Assembly (NCBI GenBank): GCA_030272155.1
Contig: CP126193.1
Location: 372,001 to 436,000 of the forward strand
From: Tetradesmus obliquus
Lineage: Eukaryota > Chlorophyta > Chlorophyceae > Sphaeropleales > Scenedesmaceae
Direction: 5' to 3'
DNA: 64,000 nt
The notes beneath the pieces are model-generated. The model was not told the DNA's origin and did not search any database. It worked only from the letters and a program-made list of their open reading frames with translations. This document shows positions 2,575 through 41,815 of the stretch, in pieces (positions within the stretch are counted from its first letter, which is position 1; the number at the start of each line of letters is the position of its first letter). A program made the translations under genes and the position numbers.

Positions 2575-5500
2575 ATGGCCTTGCGGAAGACTGGCAGTGG
2601 AGATGCAACGGGGCTTGCAGAGGCCGGATGGCCTAAAGCAGAGGACGTAATCAGGTCACGGGCTGGGGATGTCTTGATTAAGAACACTTTGCTGAAAGCA
2701 GACCACTTTCCAGGCAAGTAGTGCTTGAAAACTACCTTGACCGAGGGTATCGGTCGTGAGCACAGGAGGTGTTGGCACAGATAACGTGTCTTGACAGGCT
2801 TCTGTACTCCGTAATGGAAAACAGCGAAATATGGGAATGTGGGCACGCCTGGGCTCTCAGCGAGGCATACACAGATGCTGCTCTGATGCCAGACAAACCT
2901 CGCATGCTTGCCACACACATGCACAAAGGGCAGTCCTGCAAGCACGTATAGAACTGCACGCACAAGCAGCACTGTTTGACACCCGCACTCTTTGCTCACT
3001 TGTCAAGTGAGCTGTCCTGCCAGGTGTGCTGTCTGACAGCAGCACATGTGCTGTGTGGTGTGCATGTTTTTCAGGGTGCCAGAACACCAAGCTCACACCT
3101 CTGTTGGATGGAGCTCCAAACTTCAGACAGGTGGAGGGCCTGCCGGTGTACGGTGTGGCCATCCCGACTGTGCGCGGGCTGCGCAATGTGATGGATGTGC
3201 TGGGTGCAGCGCAAGGTGCGAATCCCAGGGCTGTTTGCTTGTCAGCAACCATGCCAGGTGCAAGCAGCAGCCGACGCAGCAGCAGCATCAATGGCAGCAA
3301 CAGCAGCATCAGAAGTTGGTTGCAACCTATGGAAGTGGAAATCACAACACAAGGTGTCAGAGGACAGCAGCTGAGGTGTAGCTGCTGTCGAACAGTTGCA
3401 AGCTTGCTGCATGCAGCTCATCCTTGTTGCTGCTGCAGCTGCTGCTGCACAGGCAGGACCTTGAACATCAGCAGCTGCAGAAATGGTGTTCAGTGCAACT
3501 GCACCCTTCAGCACTCCCCAGCAGCTTTGCTTCGTGCTTCCTGCAGCTGCTTAACGTGCCAATATGTACCAACAGCCTTGGATGTATGCTGCTGCCCCTG
3601 CTGCAGGCCAGCGCGGTGTGCTATGGCACAACATGCGGGAGGAGCCGGTGCTGTACATCAATGGCAAGCCGTATGTCGTGCGCGAGTCAGACCAGCCCTT
3701 CTGCAATGTGGAGTACACAGGTGACACGCAGCAGCGCTTGCAGGACGGCAACAGCTGCAGTGGCTGCGGCAGCAAGGGCAGCTGCAGCAGGCAGGTTACA
3801 TAGAGCTATGGCTGCTGCACTGGCCCTGTTTGGCTGCAGTAGTAACTGGTGCACCAAGAGGGCAGCCGCGCTGGCTCAGCAGTGGCAACAGAGCCATGTT
3901 GTGTGCAGTAGTCGGCGGCACAGCACAGGAGAGAACCTAGGCAGGCTATTCAAGGCTTTGCAGCAAACGCTCTCAGCGTTTCATTGGCTCTTGATGGTTG
4001 CAGTCGAGCACTATCGCGGCAGCTGTTGCACATGCCATCTGGCTCTCCACACGTGCTGTTCATGAACACAGCCACAGTGTCGCCTGCAAACAACAAGCAT
4101 GGCTCTGGCCTCTTTTGTGCTGTGCTGTGCTGCAGGCATCGACCGCTCCCGCGTGGAGGACATGGAGTCACGCCTGAAGCGTGATGTGCTGCGCGAGGCG
4201 GGTCGCTACGGGCACCACATCCTGGTCACGGAGGAGGACGACGACATGAACGTGAGCAGGGGCAGCATGCCAGCTAGCAGCAAGCAGCTGTGTGGGTTGC
4301 GGTGATGTGAAGGTGAAGCGCGCTGGTGGTGCAGGCAGCAGCTGCGTGAGTGCTGAGGCATGGCAGCCGTGATGCCTGCAGCTGCCACAGGGCCTGCAGC
4401 TGCGTGATGCGCCAATTCCTGCAAGCATGAACAGCAGATGCGGCTGTGTGGTCTAAGCATCATCCCCAGCGACGCCACAGCTGCGCGTCTTGTGCGCTTG
4501 AGCCACTGGCCTAGCATCTCCGCCTCTCCAACGCAACTCCAACGCAACTCCAACGAATGTGGTTTGCTGCCGCTGCCATCCTTGCAGGTGATTGACGTGT
4601 GGGAGCCTGTCACGGAGAGTGACGTGCAGACGCCCATGGAGGTGTACCAGGAGCTCATCGAGGACGGATACAACGTGGTGCGTGCGAATTTGTTGAACTG
4701 TTGTTATGTTGAACTGTATTTATGAAGCTGCAATATAGTGATGCAGCGCGGAGTGAGGCCGCGCAATGCCAGGGTGCTCCTCGAGTTGGTTAGGAGCTGC
4801 ATGGTGCAGGCACTGGCTGCATGCTTGTCCTGCAGCAGTGGTATGCAATGCTGTCAACAGGGCAGGTGCTTTGTGCAGCAGCCGGTTTGCGGACACCTCC
4901 TGGCAGTATCATATTCGGTGTGAATAGTGAGATGCCAGCATGCGATGTGCACTCCATCCAGATCATCCGTCCATCTCTGCCTTCGGGGCTTTTTGCCACT
5001 TTATCATGACCACTGCAATGCTGTGCTTCGTTTTGCGCTGCCGCTGCCTCTTGCAGGACTACACGCGCGTGCCCATCACCGATGAGAAGGCCCCAAAGGA
5101 CAGCGACTTTGAGCTGCTCATTCAGCGGCTGTGGAACGTGCCTCCTGATGCAGCACTGGTCTTCAACTGCCAGATGGGCCGCGGCCGCACCACCACAGGC
5201 ATGGTCATTGCTACGCTGCTCACGCTGCGGCGCTTCGGCGCATTCAGCGCGGCAGCAGCACCCCTTGCAGGACAACAACAGCAGCAGCAGCAGCAGCTGG
5301 CAAACGGCAACGGCAACGGCTTCCACATGCAGGCTGGAGATGGCGCTGCTGCTGCATACGGCAGCCAGCTGCAGCAGCTGGTGCCTGCGTGGTTCCGCAA
5401 CAGCAAGGCGGCGCGCGGCAGCGGCGCGGGCGGCGTGGGCAGCCTGGGGTCGCCCACTGCAGCGGGCGGCACGCCTCGCGGCACTGAGCAGAAGCTGAAG

Positions 5501-8500
5501 GCTGGGCAGTTTGGTGTGGTGCGCAGCCTGCTGCGTGTGCTGGAGCGGGGCGTGGCTGGCAAGGCCATCCTGGATGTGTGCCTGGACGCGTGCAGCGCGA
5601 TGCAGGTGGGTGGGGGTGCAGCGCGCAGCGTGGTGGCGCTGCTGCGCTGGTGGGGTAGTAGAGGGGCGCAGGAGACGCAGTAGCTGGCAGCAGCACTGGC
5701 TGTGGGGTTGGGGTGAAAATGTTGTTGCTGGTGAAAGATTCCACCTGCGAGGCCATCACCGCGTACCTTGGCCAGGCTTGCGGCCCATCGGCCGCATGTG
5801 CAGGAGCATTGCCTCTGTGTTGCTGGCTTGCTGACTTGTAACTGCTGTTTTGTCACATGTTATGTGCCGCAGAACCTGCGTGAGGGCATCACCACTCACC
5901 GCGGTCAGACCTGCGGCCCATCTGCTGCACATGCACTACACGAGCATTGCTTCTAGTTGCTGCTGACTTGCAAACACCTTTGTTTCTCTGCCGCATGCCG
6001 CAGAACCTGCGTGAGGCCATCACCACGTACCGCAGCCGCCTCATGGCTGAGTCCAAGGAGTCACGCCGCGCGCAGCTGATGGGCGTGTGCCTGGAGTACT
6101 TGGAGCGCTACTACATGCTCATTGCTTTTACGAGTTACCTCACCTGGCCCAAGTTTGACCCGGCCTCGCGGGGGCACGTGACGTTTCAGGACTGGATGGA
6201 CAGCAGGCCTGAGCTGCGCAGCGTGCTCAGCAGGATGCTGCGCAGGTGCGTGGTTTGGTCAGCATGCACCGCAGCCAGTGCGTGGGGAGGGTGGCATCTG
6301 CGGCAATGGTGTGTCTGTAGGTGCAGTGGTGCACCTGCGCAGCTTGCTCAGCAGGATGCTGCGCAGGTGCGTGGTTTGGTCAGCATGTAGGGCAGTGTGT
6401 GGGTTGGAACCAACGCACACGAATGTTGGCGTGTGAACCAGCGTGTTGGTCACATGCAACCTGGTTTGAGTTGATTCCATTCAAAGGGCCCCTGAACTCC
6501 ACCTTGTGCTGGCTGGCAGGCATGGCCGGGTGGGGCTTGTCTAGCAGCAAGTGCCTGGGGAGTGGTGCATCTGCTGTACTGAGTGCGAGCATTGGATGCG
6601 CCACAGCTTGCATTGTGTTTGGTGCTCGTTGCGGTCGTCGTGTACTACGCAGCAGCTCATCGAGTGTGAATGCTGTTTTGCAAATGTGTGCAGAGCCATT
6701 GTTGCACACAATGATTTATTTGGCTGTGTCTGCTGTTGTACGTCGCCAAATTCGTGACCTGACCTCTGCCTGCCGACTTCTGCCTGCCTGCCTGCTTGCT
6801 TGCTTGCCGCTGCAGGAACCCGCTGTCTGCGCTTGAGCTGCACATCCCTGCTGCCACGCTGCTGCAGGACAGCGCGGCAGGCCACCAGGGCAGCGACGAG
6901 GATGCAGACCAGGCAGCGAGGTCACAGGTGCGGCGCTGATGCTGCTGCTGCTGCTCCTGCTGCTGCTGCTGTCAGCGTGGTGCACAGCAACTTGGTGGCT
7001 GTCACGGCAAGCCAAATGTGTATCAGCGTGTGGTGGTTAGCACTCTGTGCAGAGCGCCCAGCAGCAGCTACGCATCGTCCGCGTGCAGTGCCACACAGAC
7101 AGCAGACACATGCATGCAGCCCTGCGCTACGTGTCTCGCCAAGGTGTGCGTGCTGCGGAGTGCGCTGGTCAGCCGCCTACTTGCTATGCTTGGCTGCACA
7201 TCAAGCTGATGCACCTGCCTCTCCTTGCCCGCGCGCTGCTGCTGCTCCTGCTGCTGCTGCTGCTGCTGCTGCCGCCAGGCTGAGGCGCGTGCTGACGTCA
7301 TCATCGAGTCGCGCAGCGGCGCGGTGCTGGGCGCACTGACCATCCTCAAGGAGGACTACTTCCCAGGCATGAAGAGCAGCAGGTGTGTATGGGGTGTGGG
7401 GCAGATGGGCGTGTGTGCAGCAGCAGGCGCAGGATCGAGCTAGCGAGCTGGCACGACAGATGTGAGCAGCTGTTGGATCATGTCAAGGTGCAGCTGTGAC
7501 TCTGGAGTTTCCTTTTTGAGCTCACTGATGTGTAGCCGAGATCCTCAGATGAGGTGCAAGCAACTGCGCTGTGCCTCTGCTGCGCTGTTGTGCAGATTAA
7601 GTATGCTCCACGTATCCTAGTTCTTTGCCGTTGAGCTGCCTGCTGCCGGCCGCCTCCCAACAGGCTGCCGCAGGTGCTACCTTTGCTTTTGCACATCATG
7701 AGTAGGCACCAACTTTCCTTTTTCTTCGGCGCTGTGCTGCCTGCTGCTTGCCGTGCCTCCCATCAGGCTGCCGCAGGTGCTGCCAGGTGCGGGCAACTTC
7801 AGGCGCGCCGCAGGGCCCCCTGTGTACGGCGTGGCCATGTGCACACTGGGAGGCATCCGCAACGTGCTGGCAGCGGTGGCGCAGCAGCAGCAGGCGGCTG
7901 GCGGGCCCAAGGTGCGGCAGGCTGCGCGCTTTGGAGTCCTATCAGCCAGCAGCATATGCAGCATGCACGTTGGATCTTGCCGCATGCCGCATTGACACAT
8001 CGAGTGCCGCTGCAAAGCTGTGTGCAGCTGTGCATGCACCTCATCGCGGCTGTAGCGCGCTCCACCTTGAACTGCTGCCGCCGTGCCCCCTGCACTCCCC
8101 CCTGTGCTGCGCTGCGCTGCACCCCCTGCAGTCTGTGATGTGGTTCAACATGCGTGAGGAGCCCATGGTGTACATCAACGGGCTGCCTTTTGTGCTGCGT
8201 GAGCAGCAGCGGCCCATGAAGAACCTGCAGGAGTATGCGGGCATTGATGCTGGGCGGCTGGAGCGCATGGAGGCGCGGCTGAAAGATGACGTGCTGGCAG
8301 AAGCAGGTGTGTGTATGTGTAGGAGGGGGCAGGGGGTCCTTCTGTTATAGTTTCATCAGTGCATATATGTGTTGTGTCGACGCTTAGATGCAGGCAGGCT
8401 GGAGCGCATGGAGGCGCGGCTTGGCATACGACGTGCAGGCTGAGGCAGTGCTGCTGCTGCTGCCGGTGCTGCTGCTTGCGCAGCTGCAGGTTTTGGCTGT

Positions 8501-11500
8501 TTGGGTGCGCCGCACACCTGTGTTGCTGCTAGATGGTTGGCGATTGTGCTTGGGTTGTGCAGGTTCAAGTTCAGGTTGAGTGTGAGGTTGCGTTGGTAGC
8601 TGCAGCATGCCAGATGTGCAGTTGCTCAACGACCTAGGGTTTGTCCGCGTCCAGTGCAGTTCTGTCAAGTCCAGGTGCTGCTGCTGATGCTCCTGCTGAC
8701 GCTGACGTAACACACCTTGTTTTCCACTGCAGCCCACCACAGCGGCCGCATCCTGGTGGCGCGTGAGTCAGCAGCAGCACCAGGCAGCCTGCCCTCAGAG
8801 CACGCCGTGCACTACAGCGGCACAGGAGAGGTGGTGGACATGTGGGAGCCAGTGGATGGCCCCGATGCAGTGCAGACCCCTGCTGAGGTGTATGCTGCGC
8901 TGGCTGGGGAGGGCCTGGGCGTGCATTACCTTCGCGTGCCTGTCACGGACGGCAAGGCGCCCTCAGCTGGCGACATTGACGCCATCATGCGCCAGGTGGG
9001 ACTGCAGTGTTGATTGGGTTTTTGCAGGCTCTTGCTGCAGTACATGCAGTGCATGCCATGCGACAGTATACAACCATCTGAGACGCACAATATGTTTGCT
9101 TGGTGGTGACACATCCTAATGCAGTACGCGGCCGTCATCCCGCAGCGCAGATCAACCGCCAGCAAGGGCATCTGGCTGCCGCTGCATCCGCAGCTGCCTC
9201 CCACAGCTATCAAGATCACCGCCCAGAAGCATCGTCAGCGCTCGCTGTGCTGCAGGCATGTCCCGGCATTCCCTGCCTGTATCTTGCTCCTCTTGCTCAC
9301 CCTCTGCTGCCTCTCTGCTTCCTGTCTAGTGCCCTGTCAGGTGGCGCGGGTTTGACGTCAGCAGTCGCTGCGCTGCATACAGCATTGCCCTGCTTGTGCC
9401 TTGCTCACCTGCCCCTCGCTGCTTCCTGCCTGTCTGCCCTGCAACGTGGCGCATGTGGGCCAGCAGTCGCTATGTTGCAGGCATGTCCCAGCACTCCCTA
9501 CCTGTGTCCTGCTCACCCTCTGCTGCCTCTTTGCTTCCTCTCTGCCCTTCCAGGTGGCGCATGTGGGCTATGACCACCCCATGGTCTTCAACTGCCAAAT
9601 GGGCGCAGGCCGCACCACCACAGGCACTGTCATCGGTGCCCTGCTGGCTATGTACGGCTGCGCCACGCAGCCGCCGGGCGCTGCTGCTGCTGCTGCTGCT
9701 GCTGAGGACGGCGGCAGCGGCGGCGCTGACGCTGCTGCTGCAAGTGCGCGGGCGTTCCTGGCGAGCATGCCCAGCAGCACCAGCATGGATGACTTGAGCA
9801 AGGACATCATCCGGGAGGAGCTGGCTGGGGATTCACCACGGCACTCAGGTGCGATTTTGGCTGCATCCGGTTGCATTTGTATGGACAGACGCTGGCTGGG
9901 CACAGACTGTGTGCACTGCAGAGGTCTGAGCAGGGCCGGGTCTGTGCAATTGAAGGTTGGATGGTTGGAGCTGGTGCTGCTTGTGTTTTGCGGTCTTGCC
10001 TACAGCTTCAGGCTTTCTAGCGCCTATGCTTGCTCATCGTTGTAACGCTGCCTGCCTGCCCACCGTGGTTGCCCCTGCACCCGCAGAGGATTCAGACAAT
10101 GGCAGCCCCCTGTCATCTGCCGGCATGTCGCTGCAAGGCGCATTTGCCAACCGTGCCGGGGGCGAGGCAACAGCAGCAGCAGCAGCAGCAGGCGCAGCAG
10201 CAGCAGGCCAGGGCCAGCAGCCGCCGGTGCCGCGCTGCAGCAGCGTTGCTGAGCTGTGGAGTGACCTGAGCCCTGAGGAAGTGCAGGTGCGCATGTTTGT
10301 GGTATGAAAGCTACTGGGCACAGTTTAGATAGGTTGATGAGGTGGTGTGCCTGTCTGACTGGTGACCTGCAACGCGTGTGGTCCTGCGCGTGGATGGTGC
10401 TTGCCGGATATGTAGAAGCGCCAGTGCTGCCTGGCAATTGCTGCCGAGATCAGCGCTCTCATGGATGCAAGCTTGCCAGGCACAGCGCCTGCGCGCCGCC
10501 ATGTGACGAGGTGGTGAATCATGACTGAGAGTCTGCTGCTGCTGCTGCTGCAGGAGCGCGTGAGCCTGGCTGCGGGCGGGTACGTGGGCGTGCGGCGGGT
10601 GGTGCGGCTGCTGGAGCACGGCGACAGCGCCAAGCGGCTCGTGGACGCGGTCATTGACGGCTGCGCGCAGATGCTCAACCTGCGTGTGGCCATCATGAGG
10701 TGGGCGCAGCGGCGGCATGCTGCTGCTGCGGTCCCTGCCTGCAAAATCTGCGGCCCTCATGTCCTCCCACTTGTGCCTGTGCAGCTCAGCCATGCGCATG
10801 CATGCATGAAGTGCTGCTTCAGATGGCGGAGCCACCACCTGTGGAAGCAGGACTGACAGCTGCCACATGCCCCCTGCAGCAATGGCAATTACGGCGCCAG
10901 GCTGCTGCGCGCGCGGTATGTCCAAGCTGCCCTCGGCCTGCTGCTTTTCTCAACCCCTCCGCCCTGCTGCTGCTGCTGCTGCTGCTGCTGCCACAACCTG
11001 TACACTCTCGTTGCGCCAGGTTCCGCCGCCCCAAGCACCAGTACCACAACCACAAGAGCGAGGTGGCGGCGCGCCACTTTGCGTACCGGCGCGGCTCCGC
11101 GTACCTGGAGCGCTACTGCCTGCTGGTGGCGCTGGGGGCCTACCTGCAGGCGGAGGGCCTGGGCAGCGCCACCAGCTTTGAGGCGTGGCTGGAGGCGCGG
11201 CCTGAGCTGAAGCAGGTGCGCTGCTCATCTTGTATGGGGAATGGTAGGGGTTGGTGTGCGTTGGGTTGTGGTGCGCAGTTGTGCATCTGTGCGTGCCGGT
11301 GTGCGCGCTAGTTGAGCCTTTATTTGACGTGACCGCCATGACTTCTGTTCCTTGAGCTAGGTGGCCCTTGCTTCATCAGCAGGGCAACCACACATGCAGC
11401 CTGAGCATATGCACAGCTGGGCTGCGCCTGTTCAATGCGCTGCTGACATGCACTTGCTGCACCTGCTGCCTGCACCTGCCTCCTGCTGCTGCCGCAGGCG

Positions 11501-14500: not shown

Positions 14501-15181
14501 CGTACTTGCAGCTGCTCGAGTACTTGTCAGGCGCATGTCTGCGAGTTCGGCAGGGGACCAAGCGGTTGCCGCGCCTCATGTGTTGAAATTGGCTTAATAC
14601 ACTGGCAGTGCACCGGTACTGCTGGCTGCATATCTTGCTCAAGCTGAACCTGACATCTTATGGCTGCTGCTGCTGCCGCTACGTGCCGCAGGCCTGCAAG
14701 CACAACGCGTCCGCGCCTGGCCAGAGCAGCGACGACCCTGGCAGTATGGCCTGGGCGGCGCGGCAGCTGGGCGTGCACTACCTCAAGCGCTACTTCCTGC
14801 TCATCGCGTTCAGGTGCGTTGAGTGTGTGAGGCGGGGGAGGGAAGGGGTGTGTGTGGTTTACGCCGATTGCTGGTCGCCTTCAGGGGCAGCTGCCGTAGC
14901 TTCTTGTGCACTTTTTGAAGCGCTACGTCCTGCTGGTTGCCTTCAGGTGTGGGGTCAGTCGGTGGCAATGCTGCTGTGCTTCAGCAGTTGATGTACAGAC
15001 GTTTTCTTCCAGCGCTGCCTAACACTCGCGCCTGCTGCTGCTGTTGTTCGCCTGCAGGTGCTACCTGGTGCAGCGGCAGCGCGCGGAGCAGCTGGGCCGC
15101 ACCGCGCCCGACTTCACAAAGTGGGTGGAGGACAGGCGAGAGCTGGGGCACTTGATGCACCACCTCAACCTGGACACATGA
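2575..15181 (+). CDS. PALD: Paladin-like protein (multi-domain dual-specificity-phosphatase-like), 23 exons
   Basis: Exons: 2575-2713, 3075-3215, 3607-3720, 4136-4251, 4588-4677, 5057-5605, 6004-6245, 6816-6927, 7279-7382, 7767-7911, 8132-8306, 8733-8995, 9554-9848, 10087-10286, 10554-10699, 10880-10915, 11020-11215, 11498-11620, 11965-12082, 12399-12536, 12891-14392, 14692-14813, 15058-15181. All phases agree and the sum is 5190 nt (1729 aa). Plant paladin proteins have the same repeat order: VIxSRxGxVL..HFPG, GVAxPTxxGIRNV, MREEPxVYINGxPFVLR, then a Cys-x5-Arg P-loop. P-loop 1 is CQMGRGRTTTG (Cys about 238) and P-loop 2 is CQMGAGRTTTG (Cys about 744). The third repeat has SRTATGSSAR (about 1534) with no cysteine, so it is probably inactive. 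Exon 21 carries long Ala/Gln/Pro-rich insertions. Intron 1 is GC-AG (CAG|GCAAGT). The family is probably an inactive or weak phosphatase in signalling; the substrate is unknown. The start is the least certain part; ATG 2575 was chosen because the family has a short N-terminus before VIxSR. Confidence 0.88.
11740..11895 (+). repeat. 16-bp minisatellite in paladin intron 18
   Basis: About nine head-to-tail copies of a 16-bp unit (cctgcttgctgcacag) lie between exon 18 and exon 19. Every unit ends in CAG and so can resemble a 3' splice site. Only one or two copies differ, by a single base, which suggests recent expansion. Confidence 0.9.
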
Positions 15182-15299
15182 GCGGCAGCTGCTGCTGCTG
15201 ATGATGATATGATGCGTTGCCTGCGCTGTGGTGCGGTGCGCGCACAGTGTGTCACAGGTGCAGCAAAGCATCTTGCTGCAGCCAGCAAGTTTGGTGTTG

Positions 15300-15304
15300 T
15301 GTAA
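15300..15304 (+). terminator. Candidate TGTAA poly(A) signal of the paladin gene
   Basis: TGTAA lies 119 nt after the paladin stop. This is the usual polyadenylation signal in chlorophycean green algae. No other copy lies closer. Confidence 0.55.
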
Positions 15305-21361: not shown

Positions 21362-23252
<1,891 letters not shown>

Positions 23253-26973: not shown

Positions 26974-29858
26974 ATGGGCACATACAGTACCTTGGTGCAG
27001 CAGCAGGCTGCCAGCGCCAATGTAGTGCTGCCTTACAACTCCAGGTTGGTGAAAGCTGCCGAATCTCTCTGCTCGCTGCAATTGCAGCCTGCAGCAGCAG
27101 TTGCCATGCAAGCCAGCATGTGCGCATCAGCACCACAGGATTATGCCACACAGCAGAATTGCAGCAGCATGTGCGGCACAAGCACGCACCAGCTGTGCCA
27201 GGCACCCTCCATTTCCAAGCATTCATCTATCTATTACAACATGCCATACACTGCGCCCGGCGCATGCAGCAGCGCTACGCCTCAGTCCTGCAAAGGCCCA
27301 AACCCTAGTGACTGACAAACTGGCCCCATTGGGCCCCACAGGCGCTCCCCCGTCTACTCCACCAAGGGCAATCCTGCAAAGAGCAAACCCTAGTGACCAA
27401 CCAACTGGCCCCTTGTCCTGCAGGCGCTCCCCCGTCTACTCTACCAAGGGCAATCCTGCAAAGCACAAACACTAGTGACTGACCAACTGGCCCCTTGTCC
27501 TGCAGGCGCCCCCCCCCCCCCCGTCTACTCCACCAAGGGCAATCCTGCAAAGCGCAAACCCTAGTGACTGACAAACTGGCCCCTTGTCCTGCAGGCGCTC
27601 CCCCGTGTATTCCACAAAGGGTATGGTGGCCTGCTCTCAGCCGCTGGCAGCGCAGGCCGGCCTGCGCATCCTGCAGGCAGGCGGCAACGCAGCAGACGCA
27701 GCAGTGGCAGTGGCAGCAGCACTCAGCGTCACAGAGCCCTGCTGCACAGGTGCGGCGCCGCTGCGCGACATCACTAATCACAGCGTGACGTGTACCATGC
27801 GGCATGCAGCTTGCATACAAACAGCGAGCCGCTTGGCATCTACCTCCTCCTCGGCAGTGCGTGCTAGCTGAAAAGCACCACTGTTTCCTCTGCAGGCATC
27901 GGCGGCGACGCCTTCGCGCTGTACTACTCCGCGCAGCAGCGCAAGGTGCACTGCCTGCAGGGCAACGGCGCAGCACCCGCAGGGCTCAGCCTGGAGGCGG
28001 TGCGGGCGGCAGGTGCGGGCGGCGCGGGGTTGTGTCGCCTGGGGCAGATTTAATGCGGTTTTGTTTTGCACGCATTGAGGCGGCCAGCCACGCGTGCTTG
28101 TTGTTTCACCAGCGCTGGTCTGCATGAAGCCCAGCAGGTCACAGCAGCGCATTTGACATCAAGCTGCTTGCACAGCAACATCAGGCTGCATGCCCACGCC
28201 ATGCACTCTTTTACACCAACTGCTGCTGCCAGCACACTAGACTGCCGGCGCTTCCCCAACTGTCTGCTGCTACCTGCTACCTGCTGCTGCTGCTGCTGCT
28301 GCTGTTTCTGCGGTATCAATTCCACCAGGCATAACTGGCAGCGAGCTGCCGCCCCGCCACGCGCTGACAGTCTCAGTGCCCGGCGCAGCAGCGCTCTGGG
28401 AGGATGCTGTGTCTCGCTGGGGCAGCGGACACTGCAGCCTAGCTGATATTCTAGCCCCTGCAATAGAACTGGCAGAAGAGGGCTTTCCGGTGGGCCCCGT
28501 GGCCTCATTCGAGTGGCAAAAGGGTGCCGAGGTGATTGCGGCGGCTGGCGGCCCCGGCGTGTTGGCGCTGATCACGGAAAAGGGTGAAGGGCCGCAGCCG
28601 GGCCAGATCTGGCGCAATAAGGACCTGGCGGCGACGTTGCGGCGGCTGGGGGAGCTCGGCGCGGCTGAAGGTGCGCAGGGGAGCTGCTGTGTCTGAAATG
28701 GCCCGCTAGTTGTCTACTGTCAGGCAGCTTGCAGCCAACATGCACGCATGTCAGAGGTGTGCAAGCAGCACATCTTAATCTTGCTGTCTGGCCTGTGGCG
28801 GAATAAGGACCTGGCGGCGACGTTGCGTCGGCAAGGGGAGCTCGGCGCGCGGCTGAAGGTGCGTGGTGATGCGCTGCTGCTGTGGTGACTAGCGGGCTGC
28901 TGAAGTGTGATGTCATGCCCCATCAATGCTGTACTAGTTTGTTCATGTTCAAAACAAACTCAATGATATTTTTGAATGGTGCGTTGCATGCAAGTTTGGC
29001 GCACACAGTTGCCAAACGTAACAAATAACATGTGTCAGTGCGGAGGGCGCCTGCAAGCAATCCCGTCCTAGACATCACTTCTGAGCGACCTAACATCATT
29101 TCCTGCACCCTAGCAGTGATGTAAAAGTTGTAATAGGTTAAAAGCAACGAACTGATATTTTTGAATGGTGCGTTGCGTGCAAGTTTGGCGCACACAGTTG
29201 CCAAACGTAACAAACACCACGTGTCACTGCGGCGGGTGCCTGGGAGCACTTCTGCACCAGACATCACTGTTCAGCAAGCCAACATCCTTCCCTGCACTCC
29301 AGCAATGCTGTAATAGTTTATTTGTGTTTCAAATAACTCAATGATATTTTTGAAAGGTGCGTTGCGTCCAAGTTTGCCCCGGACAGTCGCCAAGCGTAAC
29401 AAACAGCCTGTGTTATTGCGGAAGGTGCCTGCAAGCAATCCCGCCAAAGGCATCACTTTTCAGCAACCCAACATCATTCCCTGCACCCCAGCAATGCTGT
29501 GCTAGCTGTAATAGGTTTAAAGCAACAAACTGATATAACTCTGAATTGTGCGGTGTGTGCAAGTTTGGCGTACACAGTTGGCAAACTCATCAAACATCAT
29601 GTGTCATTGCAAAGGGTGCCTGCAAGCAATCCTGCCCTAGGCATCACTTTTCAGCAACCCAACATCATTCCCTGCACCCCAGCAATACTGTATGATTCAT
29701 ACAGTATGAGTTGAATTAGTTTATATGTTATAGGTTATAGGGACAAACTGACATTTTTGAACGGTGCTTATCATTCAATTGCGGCCCGCAGAAGTGGCAC
29801 GTGTCACTAGCCACATGTGTCATTCCTTTATGGGTTTGCTGTACAGTAGTGTATGAAT

Positions 29859-29915
<57 letters not shown>

Positions 29916-30070
29916 AGGCTTCTACTCAGGGCCGGTCGCGGAGGCGCTGGTGGCTGCTGTGCAGTCGCGGGGTGGCGTACTGAGCCTGCAGGACCTTGCC
30001 GACCACCGCACAGCTGAGGTGGAGCCCATCAGCGCACAGTACAAGTGAGTAGGAGTGCGGCACCAGCTGC

Positions 30071-30115
<45 letters not shown>

Positions 30116-30920
30116 GCAGTGATGCATGACAGCTGAGGTGGAGCCCATCAGCACACAGTACAAGTGAGCGGATGAAAGGGAGTGTGGCAGCAGCACCGCG
30201 GCAAATTTCCTTTTTGTTCTCTCCTTCTCTTTAAAAGTAAGTAGCAAAATGTATCAAACACTTACAAAAAGAGCGAGATCAACGCTCAAATGGCAGGAGA
30301 TTGCTTGCAGTGAGCAGCAAGGCAGGACGTAGGCAAAAGGCCCTTGAGAGCATGCGGTTCATACATGTGGAGGTGTGGATGTGTGGAGGGTGCTGCGCTG
30401 CCGTTTTCGTTGTGGCAGGGAGTACCAGCCGCCCTGGAACTGCAACTGGGCAGTTGCAGCATGGCGTGTGGCTGAAGCGACCCACACATGCTGCTGGGTT
30501 TAAGCGTGCTGCATGCTGCCACATAGCGACACAATGCATGTTGCGAGGCAGCAGCAGCCAGGTAGTGGTGATGTCACAGCATTTATTTGTACACACACCA
30601 GCTGCTGGCCCGGCTGCCTCACCCGCAGCAGCCAGCTGTGACGGCGCAGCGTTGTTGTGCCTGGCTGCCTGACCCGCAGAAATATGTTGTGAGTCAGCAG
30701 CAGCTAGCCTATAATGCTGCAGCTTGACTGTTGATTTGCATCCACCAGCTGCTGGCCTGGCTGCTTCACCCGCCTGCAGGGGCGCTGTGGTGTGGGAGGT
30801 GCCGCCACCAACCGCAGGCATCGTCACACTCATGGCTCTCAACGTACTGGAAGCACACAGCAAGCAGCAGCAACACCACACAGTCAACACTCCTACCTCC
30901 ACCACCACAACCAGCGGCAG

Positions 30921-30952
<32 letters not shown>

Positions 30953-31851: not shown

Positions 31852-31924
<73 letters not shown>

Positions 31925-32759
31925 GTGTAACTGCCTGTCGTGGTGCGCTGTGTGGTGGCCCTTGCTCCTGGTTTCAGGTGGTGGTTGACGGCCAGGGCAA
32001 TGCTGCATCGTTCATCCAGAGCACCTACATGGGCTTTGGCACAGGCATCGTGCCTGAGGTGGGGCTACTAGGATACTTGAATTAGGGTAGTGACGTGTGC
32101 GTCTTGACACCATCTCAGACAGGATCTTGATGGGCTTCGGCACACGCATCGTGCCTGAGGTGGGGCTACTAGGATAATTGAAATAGGGTAGCCATGTGTG
32201 GTTCGTGACACAATATTGGACAGGATCTTGATGGGCTTCGGCACAGGCATCGTGCCTGAGGTGAGGCTGCAAGAGGGGTTATGCTTGTCATGCTTCCCAT
32301 TCAATGGACAGCTATGCTTTTTGTTGAATGTTGGGCTTGAGCTAGGCTGCGCCATGCTGCATGTGTGGCTTCAGAGCACCACAGCGGCAGGCACCCGACA
32401 GCGTACGCTGCACTTACCCATGCATTGTGCGCACACGCATGTTCAGCTCAGACTTGTGCTTCAGCAGCTAGATGCCTTCCAGATCCCTCAGCTGGCGTTG
32501 AGCATGCCTGGCGGGCCTGCACTTGGCATGTGGCCAGACGTGCAGTTGCTCATCTGTGCTGCTGGCATATTGGGCCGGCCAGGGCTGCGGCTGCAGCCTG
32601 CAGATCCGCTGGGGGACTTGAAATGCTGCTCACACTGCTGCTGCTGCTGCTGCTACTACTGTGTCGCAGGGCTGTGGCTTCAGCCTGCAGAACCGCTGCC
32701 ACGGCTCCAACCTCTAGTCTTAGCCGTGTGCAGTACATAGGACGCGAGGTACAGTGCAC

Positions 32760-32800
<41 letters not shown>

Positions 32801-34183
32801 ATGTTTGTGTCGCAGGGCTGCGGCTTCAGCCTTCAAAACCGCTGCCACGGCTCCAACCTCTAGTCTTAGCCGTGTGCAATGCATAGCTCGCGCGGTACTG
32901 TACGCACTGCTGCTGCTGCTGCTGCTGCTGCTGCCGCTGCTTGTTTGTGTTGCAGGGCTGCGGCTTCAGCCTTCAAAACCGCTGCCACGGCTTCAACCTC
33001 TAGTCTTAGCCGTGTGCAGTGCATAGGACGCAAAGTACTGTACACACTGCTGCTGCTGCTGCATGTTTGTGTCGCAGGGCTGCGGTTTCAGCCTGCAGAA
33101 CCGCTGCCACGGCTTCAACCTGGACCCCGGCCACCCCAACAGCCTGGCCCCCCGCAAGCGGCCCTACCACACCATCATGCCGGGGCTGCTGACTGACGCG
33201 GAGGGGGGGCTGATGGCAGCGTTTGGCTGCATGGGAGGCTTCATGCAGCCACAGGGCCACCTGCAGGTGGGTGGGACACCTGTTGATGTCTGGCGGGTGG
33301 GACACACTTGCCTGGCAAGTGGGACACAGTTGCCAGAGTTGCTGTCAAGCTGCCCAAAGGACTAACATGCTGAGCCGCTGCCGTCTGTGCACGCTGCTGT
33401 TGCTGCTCAGCATGCTGCAGCTGCTCTCCAACACACTGCGTTGTGTGTGCATCCCACCCTGCAGCTGCTGCTCAACATGCTGCAGCTGGGGCTGGAACCC
33501 CAGGCGGCGCTGCTTTTGAACTTTATGCAAACAAATATCAACCTGCTGCAACTGCTCTTTAACGCGCCGCAACTGCTGTAGCACACAATGCATATGCACA
33601 GCAGGTTATTATCCAGCACGTTGGTTGCAACATGCTGAGCATTAACCTGCTGTGCATGTGCATTGTGGGCTACAGTTGCTGTTCAAAGCGCTGATTACAA
33701 GCCTGCTAGCTGTTGTTGTAGGCGGAACTGAACTTTCTGTGTGTTTTTGCTGTGCCTGCTGCAGCTGCTGCTTAACATGCTGGAGCTGGGGCTGGACCCC
33801 CAAGCCGCATTAGACGTAACGCTTCTGCACACTCGTTTGAAATAATGCTTCAGCTGCTGTTCAATGCGCTGCAGCTGCTGTTCAACATGCTGGAGCTGGG
33901 GCTGGACCCACAAGCCGCATTAGACATGCCGCGCTTCTGCATCGACCGCGTCGACTCATCAGCAGGCCCAGCCAGCGTGAACGAGAGCCACATCCTGCTA
34001 GAAGATGGCATGAGTGAGGCTGCTGTAAGAGGCTTGCAGGAGAGGGGCCATGAGGTGCAGCTGCGCAGCGGGTTTGGGCGGCTGGTGTTTGGCAAGGGCA
34101 CGATTATCGCGAGGGATGCGGAGAGTGGTGTGCTGTGTGGGGGAAGTGACCCGCGGGGTGACGGCTGCGTGCTGGGGCTGTAG
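26974..34183 (+). CDS. Gamma-glutamyltransferase-like protein (Ntn hydrolase), 10 exons
   Basis: Exons: 26974-27044, 27595-27749, 27896-28012, 28329-28670, 29918-30044, 30780-31146, 31443-31520, 31978-32058, 33078-33266, 33875-34183. Phases agree throughout and the sum is 1836 nt (611 aa). Family motifs run in order: [121 protein letters not shown] and DMPRFCID. The Thr of GGDT (about 416) is expected to be the autoprocessing nucleophile. The sequence resembles the bacterial YwrD-like branch more than animal GGT. There is no obvious signal peptide, so a cytosolic or organellar place is possible. The likely role is glutathione or gamma-glutamyl-peptide hydrolysis. Exon 6 has a Ser/Thr/Gln-rich insertion. 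At least six of nine introns carry extra copies of exon edges. A candidate TGTAA lies at 34600-34604. Confidence 0.88.
28925..29770 (+). repeat. About 190-bp tandem repeat, five copies, in transferase intron 4
   Basis: Units begin near 28929, 29121, 29309, 29500 and 29690. Each carries the block actgatatttttgaatggtg or a variant, and most also carry catcacttttcagcaaccca. Units 1 and 3 share one leader (caataactcaatgat type) and units 2 and 4 another (ggtttaaagcaacaaactg type), so the array looks built from a 380-bp dimer. It is AT-richer than the surrounding exons. Confidence 0.85.
29861..29915 (+). repeat. CTG microsatellite abutting an acceptor
   Basis: About 18 CTG units end directly in the CTGCAG acceptor of transferase exon 5 (29918). 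The repeat replaces the polypyrimidine tract. Confidence 0.95.
31855..31923 (+). repeat. CTG microsatellite in transferase intron 7
   Basis: About 23 CTG units lie 54 nt upstream of the exon 8 acceptor. Confidence 0.95.
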
Positions 34184-34670
34184 TGGAAGAAGGGCTGTTG
34201 CTGCAGTATGTATCGTGCGGTGCGCTTGCAAGCGCAATTGCGCAATTGCAATTGTAGGGCAAGTTGCAGGCTGCTACATGTGTTCCTTTGTTGAGTTTGT
34301 TTGCACTGCACCTGGCAGGTGTTGGTCATGACGTATTGTGTTGATCATTTTATGAGCATGGCCATTTTACAGTACGCTGCTGGTCTTTGCTACTGCACTT
34401 CACTTGCGCAAGTGACCCTGGTGACGAAGCAGATCAGGTCAAATCACTCCAGGCTCAGGTTTTTGCTGTCCGTGTTGACCATCTGCTTAGCAGCATGCAA
34501 GTACACGGTGGATAATCTTTTTCACTGCGCTTGCATCTGCCAGAGCCCAATTCTGCTCGCCCATTGGACGTCGACAGCTGCATCGAAGAACGTCGTGTTT
34601 GTAATCCAGACTCTAATAGTTTAGTTCATTTGGCAGTAGATACTATATAGCAGAAGCATAAGAGCTAAGC
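34184..34670. other. Intergenic region with candidate TGTAA
   Basis: About 490 bp between the transferase stop and the dehydrogenase start. TGTAA at 34600-34604 would be the poly(A) signal of the transferase gene and leaves under 70 bp before the next ATG. A short AT-rich stretch, tactatatagc, at about 34639-34649 could be the TATA region of the dehydrogenase gene. Confidence 0.45.
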
Positions 34671-36682: not shown

Positions 36683-36730
<48 letters not shown>

Positions 36731-36842
36731 GGTTTGTTGTGCAGTGCGGCGGCAGTGCTGCTGGTGTGCGTGCTGCTAAGCCGCTGCTGCAGCTGATGGG
36801 CAAGGCTGTGGAGCACCTGGGGGACCCCGGCGCTGGGCAGGT

Positions 36843-36876
<34 letters not shown>

Positions 36877-36877
36877 T

Positions 36878-36930
<53 letters not shown>

Positions 36931-37089
36931 GGCAGCAACAGTAGCAGCAGCAGCAGCAGCAGTGCCTCGGGGGCAAGGCTGTGGAGCACCTGGGGGACCC
37001 CGGCGCTGGGCAGGTGAGCAGCAGCAGCAGCAGCAGCAGTGCCTCGGCAAGGCTGTGGAGCACCTGGGGGACCTGGCACTGGGCAGGTG

Positions 37090-37182
<93 letters not shown>

Positions 37183-38456
37183 CACCATCTCTTTTCTAGC
37201 AGAACCGCGCTGCTGCTGCTGCTGCCGCGTCAGGTGGCCAAGATCAGCAACAACCTAGCAATGGCGTGCAACACATGCGGCTGCTGCTGCCAGCATCTCT
37301 GCTCCGACAACATCATGCTGCTGCTGCTGCTGCTGCTGCCACTGCTGCCGCGCCAGGTGGCCAAGATCTGCAACAATCTGGCCATGGCCATCCAGATGGC
37401 AGCAGTCAGCGAGGCGCTGGCACTGGGGGCGGCCATGGGCCTGGACCCTGCTGCTCTCACCCAGGTCTTCAACAGCTCCTCGGCACGCTGCTGGTCCAGC
37501 CAGGTGTACAACCCAGTGCCAGTGAGTGTGGTGATGCGTCACGGCCCGTGAGGGTGGTGTGTCACTGTGTGACGTGTCACTCGGCACGCTGCTGGTCCAG
37601 CCAGGTGTACAACCCAGTGCCAGTGAGTGGATGATGTGTCACTCCGTGTGACCTGCCACTTGGTGTGACCTGCCACTTGGTGTGACGTGTCACTCCGTGT
37701 GACCTGTTGGTCCAGCCAGGTGTAAAACCCAGTGCCGGTGAGTGTGGTGCGAAACAGCACATGTGTTATGATGCATGCCTACGCACCTTTGAGCAATGCA
37801 TGATCGGGACACCCCTGCCCAACGTCTCCTGATGTGTCAGCCGCTGTGATGTGGCGCTCAGCAGCGGGCCCAACGAGCAGCTGCACTGGCCTCAACAACG
37901 CACCAGCAGGGTGCAGCATCCGACTGTCCCATGACGCACCCACCAGACTGCTGCTGCTGCTGCTGCTGCTGCGAGGGTGTGCTGCCTGACGTGCCGTCAG
38001 CGCACGAGTACAGGGGCGGCTTCAATGCAGGCTTCATGAGCAAGGACCTGCACTGTCCCATGACGCACCCACCAGACTGCTGCTGCTGCTGCTGCTGCTG
38101 CGAGGGTGTGCTGCCTGACGTGCCGTCAGCGCACGAGTACAAGGGAGGCTTCAATGCTGGCTTCATGAGCAAGGACCTGCACTGTCCCATGACGCACCCA
38201 CCAGACTGCTGCTGCTGCTGCTGCTGCCAGGGTGTGCTGCCTGACGTGCCGTCAGCGCACGAGTACAGGGGCGGCTTCAATGCTGGCTTCATGAGCAAGG
38301 ACCTGCACTGTCCCGTACCGCACCCACCAGACTGCTGCTGCTGCTGCTGCTGCCAGGGTGTGCTGCCTGACGTGCCGTCAGCGCACGAGTACAGGGGCGG
38401 CTTCAATGCTGGCTTCATGAGCAAGGACCTGCACTGTCCCGTACCGCACCCACCAG

Positions 38457-38507
<51 letters not shown>

Positions 38508-38667
38508 GTGTGCTGCCTGACGTGCCGTCAGCGCATGATTACAGGGGCGGCTTCAATGCAGGCTTCATGAGCAAGGACCTGCGCCTGGCGCTGCAGCTGG
38601 CGGGCAGCGCCAAGCAGCCGCTGCCGATGGGGGAGCGCGCTGCACAGCTGTATCAGCAGGTGGGTGG

Positions 38668-38717
<50 letters not shown>

Positions 38718-38980
38718 CCAAGGGGTGCATCATTGTCAGGATACATGCAACCTCATGGATGCGGGTCATGGTGTGGGTCTTAGATGAGTATGACCCTGGG
38801 CAACCGAACTACATCAAGTGTGGTATATACAACAGGCTTACAGCTCCACTGCTACGTGTTGCAGCATGAGCGTCAGACTGAAGTCCCGGTCATGCCCTGT
38901 ACGCAAGTAGCAGTAGAGCCGTAGATAATTAATGTTGACCAGGCTTGCCATGAGGGCTCTGCTGTGTGCCGCACGGCCGC

Positions 38981-39051
<71 letters not shown>

Positions 39052-39349
39052 AGGTGCTGGATGCATCAGGCGGCGAGCCCGTCGACTTTGGTGCCATCTA
39101 CAAGGTGCGCCGGGTCATCTGTGCAAGCATGCCTGCAGCTGACACTGTTTCTGTTCAAGGGTGTTGCATTGCATGCATGTTACAATGCGTGTGTGGCGCT
39201 TTGTGCAGAATGTGCAGTGCATGCTCCAAGTTGGTCGCTTTTGTGGTGCTGCTGTCCTACTGCACCTGACTTGCCGGTGCTGTGCCGCCCTGACAATGCA
39301 GTTCGTCTACAACGGCCGGCCTTCAAATGGTGGCTTGCAGGGCAACTAG
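34671..39349 (+). CDS. 3-hydroxyisobutyrate dehydrogenase-like protein, probably mitochondrial, 10 exons
   Basis: Exons: 34671-34778, 35186-35228, 35588-35716, 36015-36076, 36352-36576, 36745-36840, 37357-37521, 38507-38659, 39054-39104, 39302-39349. Phases agree and the sum is 1080 nt (359 aa). Residues 1-25 are Arg/Ala/Ser-rich without acids (mitochondrial presequence-like). [14 protein letters not shown] (37-50) is the Rossmann NAD-binding loop. [11 protein letters not shown] (about 171) is the substrate-binding signature. [11 protein letters not shown] (exon 7) and [12 protein letters not shown] (exon 8, catalytic Lys about 299) complete the beta-hydroxyacid dehydrogenase fold. The expected role is valine catabolism: oxidation of 3-hydroxyisobutyrate to methylmalonate semialdehyde. 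Intron 3 appears to be GC-AG (CCAG|GCGAGC). Introns 6 and 7 are filled with copies of flanking exon edges. TGTAA at 39786-39790 is a candidate poly(A) signal. Confidence 0.87.
36684..37185 (+). repeat. CTG run before exon 6, then CAG runs after each donor copy
   Basis: A CTG tract (36684-36731) precedes the exon 6 acceptor. After the donor at 36841, CAG tracts occupy 36842-36929, 37017-37038 and 37093-37163. Each CAG tract follows directly on a copy of the exon 6 end and donor. A CTG tract at 37317-37337 precedes exon 7. Confidence 0.9.
37931..38506 (+). repeat. Four tandem copies of the exon 8 start in dehydrogenase intron 7
   Basis: Copies start at 37976, 38105, 38231 and 38357, ahead of the true exon at 38507. 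Spacings are 129, 126, 126 and 150 bp, all multiples of three. Each copy encodes [12 protein letters not shown] plus [12 protein letters not shown] and is followed by CTG units. Copies 1 and 2 have GAG where the acceptor CAG should be; copies 3 and 4 keep CCAG. The whole array is open in one frame. Confidence 0.93.
38987..39051 (+). repeat. CTG microsatellite abutting exon 9 acceptor
   Basis: About 21 CTG units run directly into the CTGCAG acceptor at 39053 of dehydrogenase exon 9. Confidence 0.95.
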
Positions 39350-39785
39350 CGTGCAGCGTCAGGGTCTTGGGCGGGCCAGGGAGCTCCGGAGTGGCCACCG
39401 TTCGCTTGTCAATTCATGCTGAGCCAGAAGGAGACTAAGCAAGGTTTTAATGTGATGGGTGTTGATTTTAAATGTGTCTTCGAGTCGCTTTGCGGCGCCT
39501 ACCTGCGAGGTTGCCTCTAATGAAATGTCTTGTGAAGTTAACTGCGAGGTTTTGAGTAACCAGCCCATTTTCTGCTGCAAGAAGAGCGTGTCACCATTTG
39601 GACTTGTAGAGTATCTCTTATGTTTCTTCCGATTTTGCTCTTTATGTTTGCCAGCCTCCACCACGATTATATACACTCATAAGCATCACCTCGACCAGTG
39701 CCCACTGGGCTTTGAGAGCCGAAAATCCACTATCATGCAGGGTTTGAAATTCAAAGTAATTCCTTGAAGTGACGAGCATCGCAAC

Positions 39786-39790
39786 TGTAA
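39786..39790 (+). terminator. Candidate TGTAA poly(A) signal of the dehydrogenase gene
   Basis: TGTAA 437 nt after the stop codon. No nearer copy was seen. Confidence 0.4.
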
Positions 39791-40144
39791 GCGCATCCCA
39801 TCAGAAACGGTGAGCTGCAGTTGCTGTCTGCGAGAATACCAGCTGCCTCGGCCAACTAATTCAGCATATATGCTCTAGAGTTAAAACCTAATGTTGCTAG
39901 CTGCTGCTGTGTGCCAACTGCGACCAAACCAGCGCGCCACTCTTTTGCCCCCACCTTCACCTTACTGCCCGGTTACGAACACGGCTGTTTTGTGCAATGA
40001 TTAAACCGTAAATATCAACTCCAGTTTGCTCAGCCAGCTGCAGGTCGTCGCAGCAAATCTGCTGTGGCCACAGCCAGCAGCTCTGATACGTGCCGCAGCA
40101 GCTCCGCATTCAAACACTCACAAGTACGCCACTGCTGAACAAAA

Positions 40145-40162
40145 GTCTATTATATTATTTTC
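40145..40162 (+). promoter_or_regulatory. AT-rich TATA-like box
   Basis: The stretch tattatattattttctc stands out from GC-rich surroundings about 40-55 nt before the ATG at 40200. It would favour that start codon over the upstream in-frame ATG at 40026. Confidence 0.35.
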
Positions 40163-40199
40163 TCGGCCCCTTGACGACAACCCTCAGGCACCTGGCCAC

Positions 40200-40513
40200 A
40201 TGAAGCCCAGCCTGCAGTACAACGAGCAGGCTGGCAGCCCAACTCACCACATGCAGCACCACATGCTCCCTGAAGATGACCGCAGCAGGCCTGCACAGCC
40301 AGCAACACTCGTCTTCAGGCGCCGCCACTACAGCAGCCAGCTGGCCCGCAGCGGCAGCAAGCAGCTCTTCAAGCCGCTGCAAGCCCGAAAAGACATAGCC
40401 AAGCCAGGCAGCAGCAGCAGCAGCAGCCCCGGCGGCAGCACCCTGCCAGCCCTGCACCACTACTTCGACCCCAGGCGGCGACAGCAAGCCGCAACAGCAG
40501 CAGCAACCAGCCC

Positions 40514-40545
<32 letters not shown>

Positions 40546-41273
40546 GTGAGCCTGGCCCTGCTCGCAACAGCAGCCTCACCTCAGAGGATGCCACGCTGCA
40601 GCAGCTGCTGATCGAGCGGCTGCAGCACATTCAGCAGCAGAAGGAGCGCTGCATGGCAGAGCTGCTGGGCCTGCAGAGCCAGCGCACAGCAGCATTCCAG
40701 CAGCAGCAGCAGCAGCAAGGGATGCAAGCCCTGGCAGTGCACACAGCAGAAGCAGCAGCAGCTGGGTCCCACCAGTACAATGGCAAACACAGCGCTGCTG
40801 CCGCTGCTGCTGCAGTGGCAGCTGTGCCGGTCAACGTCTGCGAGTCACCGCAGTTCAGCTCTCAGTCGCAGCACTCGCGCCACCTGCTGTTCAGGCAGCC
40901 CAGCTGTGAGGTGTCACAAGCAGGCTCTGCAAGCCCCTCCCCACTGGCACCACGGCCAGCAGCAGCAGCAGCAGCAGGACCGGCGCATGCCATGTCAGCA
41001 CCAGCAGCAGGCCTGGTGGCAGCACCCCAGGCAGCAGCAGCAGCAGCAGCAGCAGCAGTGCCATCTGCCATGGATCTGTTGCTGGCCGCTGCAGCTGCAC
41101 CTGCAGCAGTGGTGCCGAGGGCAACAGCAGCAGTGGTGCCTTCGACAGCAGCAGCTGCAGCAGCTGCTGCAGCACCTGAGCAGGAGCCCAGTGCTGGTGA
41201 GCTGGCAGTCTTGCAGCAGCTGCTGCTGGCTGTTGCTTCTCCCGCCAGCGGTCCGGCATACTCCGATTGCCTT

Positions 41274-41325
<52 letters not shown>

Positions 41326-41513
41326 TGTTACAGCAGCAACTGTTGGAGCAGCAGCAGCAGCAGCAATACCAGCAGCAACAGCAGCTGGTGCAGCTGGTGC
41401 AGGCATTGCAGGGTGGCCCCACAGCAGCAGCAGCAAAGCCCGAGTTAGGGCCCCTGGCAGCACTGATGGTGGGGCTGCTGCAAGCTGCGGCAATGCAACA
41501 GCAGTCCGACTGA
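40200..41513 (+). CDS. Low-complexity polyGln/polyAla protein, function unknown
   Basis: A single uninterrupted ORF, 437 aa from ATG 40200; the frame also stays open from an ATG at 40026. The N-terminal 100 residues are basic and the least repetitive part (FRRRHYSSQLARSGSKQLFK). Then follow Ser, Gln and Ala runs, a probable coiled coil (LIERLQHIQQQKERCMAELL), more Ala/Gln tracts, and a short amphipathic tail GLLQAAAMQQQSD. The composition resembles transcription or RNA-associated regulators, but there is no recognisable domain, so I assign no function. Absence of introns is unusual beside its neighbours. The 3' end, stop codon included, is repeated downstream (41514-41815). Confidence 0.5.
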
Positions 41514-41815
41514 TCAGGCTGATGTTAGCAGCGGTGATGCAGCAGCAGTCCGGCTGATGGGGCTGCTGCAAGCAGCAGCAATGCAGCAGCAGTCTGGCTG
41601 ATGGGGCTGCTGCAATCAGTGGCAACGCAGCAGCAGTCTGGCTGATGGGGCTGCTGCAAGCAGCGGCGATGCAGCAGCAGTCTGGCTGATGGGGCTGCTG
41701 CAAGCAGCGGCGATGCAGCAGCAGTCTGGCTGATGGGGCTGCTACAAGCATGGCAGAGCAGCAGCAATCGGCTGAATCGGCTGATTTTAGCAGCGGCAAT
41801 GCAGCAGCAGTCCAA
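41514..41815 (+). repeat. Tandem copies of the polyQ gene's 3' end
   Basis: About six copies of a 45-bp unit matching the last codons of the ORF plus TGA (core ggggctgctgcaagcagcgg, then atgcagcagcagtctggctga). The copies vary at a few positions and the last two decay. Confidence 0.92.

Follow-up and report, generated by a model that had tools for sequence, protein, structure and literature searches.

The tandem genomic duplication route to intron gain, as set out in a review that cites Gao and Lynch 2009 and Hellsten 2011 (PMC3443670), begins with the duplication of an exonic segment containing AGGT, which then provides both ends of a new intron. In the potato RNA-dependent RNA polymerase gene, a tandem duplication across an intron-exon boundary is described as one event that produced a new intron via a cryptic donor (PMC4974935), and in Drosophila, novel intron positions have been attributed to sliding or tandem duplication (PMC2891723); the cases described there are few, come from species comparison, and concern the position of introns, not their filling. 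At the level of mutation, CST and polymerase alpha-primase make small tandem duplications at staggered breaks (PMC8355091); the products described are adjacent and experimental, and the part of that report that covers them mentions neither a border preference nor spacers of 60-90 nt. Introners change introns in bulk in some eukaryotes, and those described in PMC9860276 insert into many genes genome-wide. Within the open-licence literature, which leaves out most subscription papers, no description of recurrent arrays of exon edges in introns was found; the accounts found there were of single border-crossing duplications (PMC4974935) and of general models, as far as the portions consulted extend.

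In this study, we have found that many introns of Tetradesmus obliquus contain additional copies of the edge of the neighboring exon, splice site included. This had been proposed in an initial annotation of the window, by which we mean the whole 64,000-nucleotide stretch of DNA that was analyzed (G000:C3:372001-436000, from a genome of 104.7 Mb in 17 contigs), and it proved to hold outside the window as well. The window was compared with itself and searched with Tandem Repeats Finder, and its first 12 kb and two further stretches were inspected directly. The self-comparison, which the annotation had asked for, placed 58 of 78 window repeat pairs within 3 kb, and copies were seen at 13 of the 77 window borders of predicted exons, in the stated numbers of one to four per border. 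They occur on both strands, as had been claimed, at twelve plus-strand exons and at one minus-strand donor that was recognized by eye, and they range as described from near-identical (46/46 nt at the 37521 donor) to decayed (at 14813 and 8306). The claim that at least six genes are involved stood for a Paladin-like gene, a gamma-glutamyltranspeptidase gene, a 3-hydroxyisobutyrate dehydrogenase gene, and one unnamed minus-strand gene; the figure of six was not established, and the gene finder merges neighbors. The copies in the window are listed below.

5743..5902, plus strand: Paladin-like gene, copy of the acceptor edge of exon 6004-6245 (copy of 5874-6033); self-comparison and border test
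Edge 5741, plus strand: Paladin-like gene, second, weaker acceptor-edge copy for exon 6004-6245; border test
6335..6395, plus strand: Paladin-like gene, copy of donor edge 6214-6274 (exon end 6245), 93% over 61 nt; read directly
7600..7681, plus strand: Paladin-like gene, copy of acceptor edge 7701-7784 (exon start 7767); self-comparison and unanchored scan
8387..8448, plus strand: Paladin-like gene, decayed copy of donor edge 8246-8306; self-comparison and border test
9236..9347, plus strand: Paladin-like gene, copy of acceptor region 9461-9560 (exon start 9554), exon part about 7 nt; self-comparison and unanchored scan
14906..14949, plus strand: Paladin-like gene, copy of the donor edge of exon 14692-14813; border and unanchored scans
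21951..22057, minus strand: unnamed gene, copy of 22063-22179 including the donor edge; self-comparison and by eye
27283..27594, plus strand: gamma-glutamyltranspeptidase gene, tandem array of the acceptor and first nucleotides of exon 27595-27749; self-comparison, Tandem Repeats Finder, and border test
28796..28863, plus strand: gamma-glutamyltranspeptidase gene, copy of donor edge 28610-28675 (exon end 28670); self-comparison and genome search
30129..30168, plus strand: gamma-glutamyltranspeptidase gene, copy of the donor edge of exon 29918-30044; self-comparison
32130..32268, plus strand: gamma-glutamyltranspeptidase gene, two donor-edge copies of exon 31978-32058, period 101; Tandem Repeats Finder and border test
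32624..32999, plus strand: gamma-glutamyltranspeptidase gene, acceptor-edge array of exon 33099-33266, edges 32690, 32836, and 32976; border test
33459..33829, plus strand: gamma-glutamyltranspeptidase gene, acceptor-edge copies of exon 33875-34127, edges 33464 and 33764 and a weak third at 33399; border test
37580..37749, plus strand: 3-hydroxyisobutyrate dehydrogenase gene, two donor-edge copies of exon 37357-37521, edges 37622 (the 46/46-nt match) and 37737; border test
37923..38482, plus strand: 3-hydroxyisobutyrate dehydrogenase gene, four acceptor-edge copies of exon 38507-38659, period 126-129; Tandem Repeats Finder and border test
37975, 38104, 38230, and 38356, plus strand: copy edges of this acceptor array; border test

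The copy at 6335..6395 falls outside the border counts because a spurious short predicted exon comes next, and that at 9236..9347 is not among the 13 window borders. On the minus strand, the exon (recognized by eye) ends at 22140 and the copy edge lies at 22018, an offset of 122. The 3-hydroxyisobutyrate dehydrogenase acceptor array lies within one open frame (37850-38869, plus strand) in units of 126-129 nt, and use of an upstream copy could therefore add in-frame repeats of about 42 residues. The window also holds other repeats: a 189-bp array of 3.8 copies (28964-29692), in which no exon edge was seen, in the intron after exon 28329-28670; a 44-bp unit in about eight copies (41470-41813) at the end of a low-complexity, Gln/Ala-rich plus-strand open frame, which need not represent an exon edge; and minisatellites of 22 bp (45815-46183, 16.7 copies) and 32 bp (51531-51951, 13.2 copies, 96% matches). 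Two tandem paralogous segments that lie some 12-13 kb from each other (44459-52669 and 57193-64000) have diverged (70-96% identity in pieces) and differ in their local repeats; their divergence is too great for a comparison of paralogues to reveal an empty site.

Exons were taken from a purpose-written gene finder that was seeded with window peptides and junctions; its self-training used the window together with ten random 20-kb blocks and eight short loci. It merges adjoining genes, and border sources were restricted to exons with a strong coding score. For the random blocks, a fixed seed gave a draw of 100, of which the first ten were used; these amount to 200 kb, or 0.2% of the genome, on five contigs (C1, C4, C5, C14, and C15). 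Where exons could be checked, the predictions are good, since they agree with deposited proteins. The Paladin-like model, from which weak predicted exons were taken out by hand, has 21 exons and no stop and is 98% identical to the T. obliquus protein (OEZ85_011384 was used as the comparison); against this protein and that of Scenedesmus sp. NREL 46B-D3, it has zero indels at splice junctions. One of the random blocks yielded a partial eIF3B model that matches a T. obliquus protein at 100% identity across 481 residues, although one of its borders has five intronic copies.

In the first border test, in which 40 exon and 6 intron nt were compared with the border's own intron after exclusion of the border-adjoining part, 39/339 borders gave a match (12/75 in the window and 27/264 in the random blocks). 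Unrelated introns reached the same score in 0.34% of cases and dinucleotide-shuffled introns in 0.06%, so that in the count against shuffled controls suggested by the annotation, here run on the ten random blocks, borders stand well above background; exon-interior queries reached it in 2/311 cases, and intron pieces compared with the rest of their own intron reached it in 8.8%. A second test, in which simple repeats were masked, less of the border-adjoining intron was excluded, and the score required was slightly lower, found 82 own-edge copies in the adjacent introns of 42/348 borders (13/77 in the window and 29/271 in the ten random blocks), with at most seven per border and with donors (19/170) and acceptors (23/178) alike. 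The blocks differed strongly, from 0/54 to 11/40 borders with copies (heterogeneity P = 3.7e-4). L019-L020 (0/54) and L023-L024 (0/34) had no border copies despite many strong exons; introns are shortest there (medians, 244 and 227) and CAG/CTG tracts fewest, and L009-L010 (11/40) presents the contrasting case. Introns at borders with copies are longer (median, 480 versus 299 nt), a difference that was counted per border and to which the greater room offered by longer introns may contribute.

The nearest copy lies at a median of 119.5 nt (5 to 95%, 94-161), and the steps between copies have a median of 116 nt (n = 40). Two or more copies were present in 18/42 families and a single copy in 24/42; the units are direct and head to tail with a regular period, and an array of n spacers has n+1 edges. 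The eIF3B gene is typical, with the last 39 exon nt plus GTGAG found five times in the intron in steps of 99-116 nt and at 95-100% identity. Internal array spacers align to each other (mean substitution, 0.24 versus 0.52 when shuffled; 17 families), which indicates that units were multiplied as wholes. In the same number of families, substitution was 0.126 in cores and 0.244 in spacers, with cores less diverged in 16/17, and gaps per 100 nt numbered 0.3 and 2.8, respectively, a contrast that must be read with the fact that copies were detected via their cores. The units are thus unequal along their length, cores against spacers, unlike those of minisatellite-like arrays. The outer flank of the last copy was homologous to the exon-side intron in 10/24 single and 5/18 terminal copies. 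Across 33 borders, the farthest copy comprised a median of 37 exon and 12 intron nt; its intron part was 13 nt or less at 18/33 borders (11/22 in the random blocks), and at donors as well as acceptors the conserved block often took in 5-12 intron nt before it ended. A similar spacing was found for repeat pairs assigned to introns (median, 114; n = 17) or to sequence far from exons (median, 130; n = 11), although of twelve such or similar pairs inspected by eye, at least five turned out to be exon-like. At L015:782-969 and 1156-1480, a whole small exon-like unit with splice-like ends (it reads ...EAVADAYSKWNKR) is repeated several times, and at L009:888-966 and 1559-1638 there are tRNA-like sequences, recognized by eye, that are 98% alike and 671 bp apart.

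Matches were confined largely to the adjacent intron and to one orientation. In the first border test, they were direct at 39/339 borders and inverted at 3/339, whereas the intron on the exon's other side gave 1/318 direct and 3/318 inverted matches; the next 2 kb beyond the adjacent intron matched 25/339 borders, at one seventh the density and with simple repeats unmasked. This adjacent, direct bias supports the view, put forward in the annotation, that a local process repeatedly duplicates exon-intron borders. One border each from the gamma-glutamyltranspeptidase, 3-hydroxyisobutyrate dehydrogenase, and eIF3B genes was searched against the 104.7 Mb of the genome, in a search that skips simple repeats and very common words; the 2, 5, and 6 matches, respectively, lay at the border's own locus only.

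Local-repeat coverage was only mildly raised at borders: it was 17-19% just inside the exon and 12-19% in the first 20 intron nt, compared with 10-16% further into the intron and 7-10% deeper in the exon; by class, it was 20.5% in introns versus 8.2% far from exons. When 118 introns flanked by strong exons were scanned by BLAST with no anchoring at borders, border-spanning repeats appeared in 29 introns, intron-internal repeats in 14 (only 4 without border involvement), and exon-only pieces in 3. In introns with edge copies, 276/623 interior anchors were copied. CAG/CTG tracts were considered as a trigger; they showed no association with copies at either donors (3/19 with copies and 42/151 without) or acceptors (7/23 and 55/155). 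Microhomology, assessed as exact 6-mer recurrence 80-170 nt away, is insufficient alone as the cause of the border excess: at donor-side positions it was 4-12%, the border itself (6%) not standing out, and at acceptor-side positions it was 4-17%, rising modestly to 17% where intron and exon meet.

Taken together, these findings are probably explained by recurrent short-range duplication of borders, which is tolerated and then followed by unit-wise expansion and decay. A short-range process would repeatedly copy a border-spanning piece, mostly in direct orientation, and a second exon edge with its splice site would thus land about 100-130 nt off, inside the adjacent intron. The duplication could be tolerated because the exon-attached splice site still yields the same mRNA, the spare edge being merely intronic. 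The two edges may then offer homologous footholds of about 40 nt for unit-wise gain and loss, leading to arrays of up to seven copies, which would decay via substitution and indels. There is good support for duplication that is local, direct, and periodic and that expands by whole units: the locality, the orientation, the periodicity, the range of decay, the relatedness of internal spacers, and the fit to deposited proteins in two genes were all observed directly. The mutation itself presumably originates in DNA repair or replication, and splicing is likely to act as a filter on the events. Template switching is one candidate initiator of the duplication. Staggered breaks, which yield small tandem duplications (PMC8355091), are another. 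Neither of them explains the border excess, and the model as a whole does not account for that excess, whether borders are hit or retained more often, or for the exon-derived part of the copies outlasting the intron-derived part. Among copies with a core identity of at least 0.9, the outer-flank homology expected of plain tandem duplication was present in only 4/8 single and 2/12 terminal copies; furthermore, simple decay is at odds with the exon-derived cores having roughly half the divergence of the spacers when all of these copies lie in introns.

Several other explanations need to be weighed against recurrent border duplication. The exons come from a home-made gene finder seeded on this window, and an artefact of prediction or assembly might therefore be suspected; it is very improbable, since assembly errors would hardly produce decayed copies, the eIF3B and Paladin exons agree with deposited proteins, and the scan unanchored at borders recovers the same repeats (predicted exons were still used for classing). 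A mobile element or introner family would suit the regular unit length and the insertion-like geometry, and 6/41 spacers do match other blocks; however, the other 35/41 have no match in any other block, one spacer provides 50/59 of the spacer matches there, and the three edges searched genome-wide were found only at home. There were 285 loose spacer-to-spacer hits, and the 25 listed are 9-17 nt long. The dispersal expected of such an element is absent from both the spacers and the three edges, and we rejected this origin as extremely improbable, in agreement with the annotation, which had held that the copies match locally, are not dispersed, and are not transposons. It is also quite unlikely that the copies are selectively kept as putative alternative or decoy splice sites. 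Their GT or AG is kept in 71/82 copies, acceptor copies score about as well as used acceptors (6.9 versus 7.1), cores are less diverged than spacers, and 166 of 312 copy-exon differences are synonymous (146 are not), above the expectation of 0.26 if the copy alone evolves or 0.42 with silent exon change too. The GT/AG retention, however, equals the expectation from neighboring-base identity (0.87 and 0.87), donor copies score below used donors (5.4 versus 7.5), and the synonymous excess is modest and counts multi-copy families repeatedly. In addition, core indels comprise ten that break the frame and none in frame, on which ground coding mini-exons were rejected; we saw no evidence of coding use of the copies, and a consistent AG or GT at their inner ends was not seen by eye among the copies listed.

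The remaining alternatives concern why borders stand out. If local tandem duplication struck purely at random, was filtered by splicing, and was followed by neutral decay, borders would only seem special because the exon preserves a readable reference copy. Small tandem duplications at breaks are a known mutation class (PMC8355091), at 6/33 borders here the copies are simply tandem duplications that take in much of the intron (57-130 nt), pairs classed away from borders have similar spacing, and repeat coverage just inside borders (17-19%) is only mildly above that of the adjoining intron (10-19%). Our simulation placed duplications of about 118 nt at random in 83 clean introns, with 1500 draws under each of three settings and the same scan, excluding splice-site loss, constraining exons, and letting introns decay by substitution and indels. 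The ratio of border to intron-only repeats was 1.09-1.24 in these single-event simulations, with unit length assumed normal, versus 29 to 4 observed (binomial P = 1.4e-4), and the share ending 13 nt or less from the splice site was 0.13-0.20 versus 18/33 (P = 1.2e-5). Moreover, in introns without edge copies, 30/222 border anchors were copied compared with 36/1035 interior anchors, and a purely random origin is therefore unlikely. Because the simulation treats single events with a normal unit length and exon-like cores may persist longer, the excess may reflect retention rather than targeting. At the other extreme, splice-site-bounded pieces of exon edge could be copied into the nearby intron by a splicing-aware process, for example, from unspliced RNA during break repair. 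This would fit the conserved block that often stops 5-12 nt into the intron on both sides, the preference for direct over inverted copies (39 versus 3), and the three edges matched only at home, but it is rather improbable: copies of spliced exon-exon junctions numbered 0/122 (two flagged cases were acceptor copies on inspection), and internal spacers were duplicated as well. The outer tracts of 12 acceptor copies with unrelated flanks also do not resemble random sites, with a mean score of -0.15 compared with 1.74 for real acceptors and -1.56 for position-matched sites (P = 0.04 against the latter); an outer tract that is half decayed, not random, leans toward a real acceptor that was duplicated in the ordinary way and has since decayed. 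A bolder and doubtful proposition is that a mechanism recognizing the splice site itself, coupled to RNA or the spliceosome or to exon chromatin, copies from a variable exon point to just past the splice consensus and that, with preferential upkeep of the exon-derived part, introns would grow from their own borders.

Recurrent short-range duplication of borders is the favored reading. If borders are preferred targets, or if copies are preferentially kept, such duplication would be a way for introns to grow that supplies spare splice sites at the same time. In the comparison given in PMC5966456, mean intron length is 462 nt in T. obliquus versus 230, 302, and 284 nt in three other Sphaeropleales and 270 nt in Chlamydomonas; since introns at copy-bearing borders are longer, border copies could be part of the cause. 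The copies range from identical to decayed, and rates and mechanism should therefore be measurable by strain comparison; short-range duplication at gene borders thus makes one route of intron growth testable.

The initial annotation had likened the copies to the tandem-duplication route to intron gain. As worded, this does not hold: the copies lie inside existing introns, and in two genes new intron creation was not borne out, the deposited eIF3B and Paladin proteins fitting the exon-adjacent borders with one intron at each. As in the AGGT route, the duplicated segment supplies splice sites; unlike that route, what is duplicated is an existing border, and no new intron was seen in eIF3B or Paladin. 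The potato case, as it is described, is likewise a local direct duplication that spans the 3' part of an intron and the 5' part of the next exon and takes its splice signals from the parent copy; in T. obliquus, by contrast, many borders are involved, donors and acceptors alike, and the copies stay intronic and often form arrays. The Drosophila cases, as reported, share local duplication with splice-like sites. The T. obliquus copies are reminiscent of the described products of CST and polymerase alpha-primase in being direct duplications of tens of nucleotides made without transposons, and of introners, as portrayed in PMC9860276, in changing introns in bulk; unlike introners, the copies in T. 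obliquus are local, each belonging to the border beside it.
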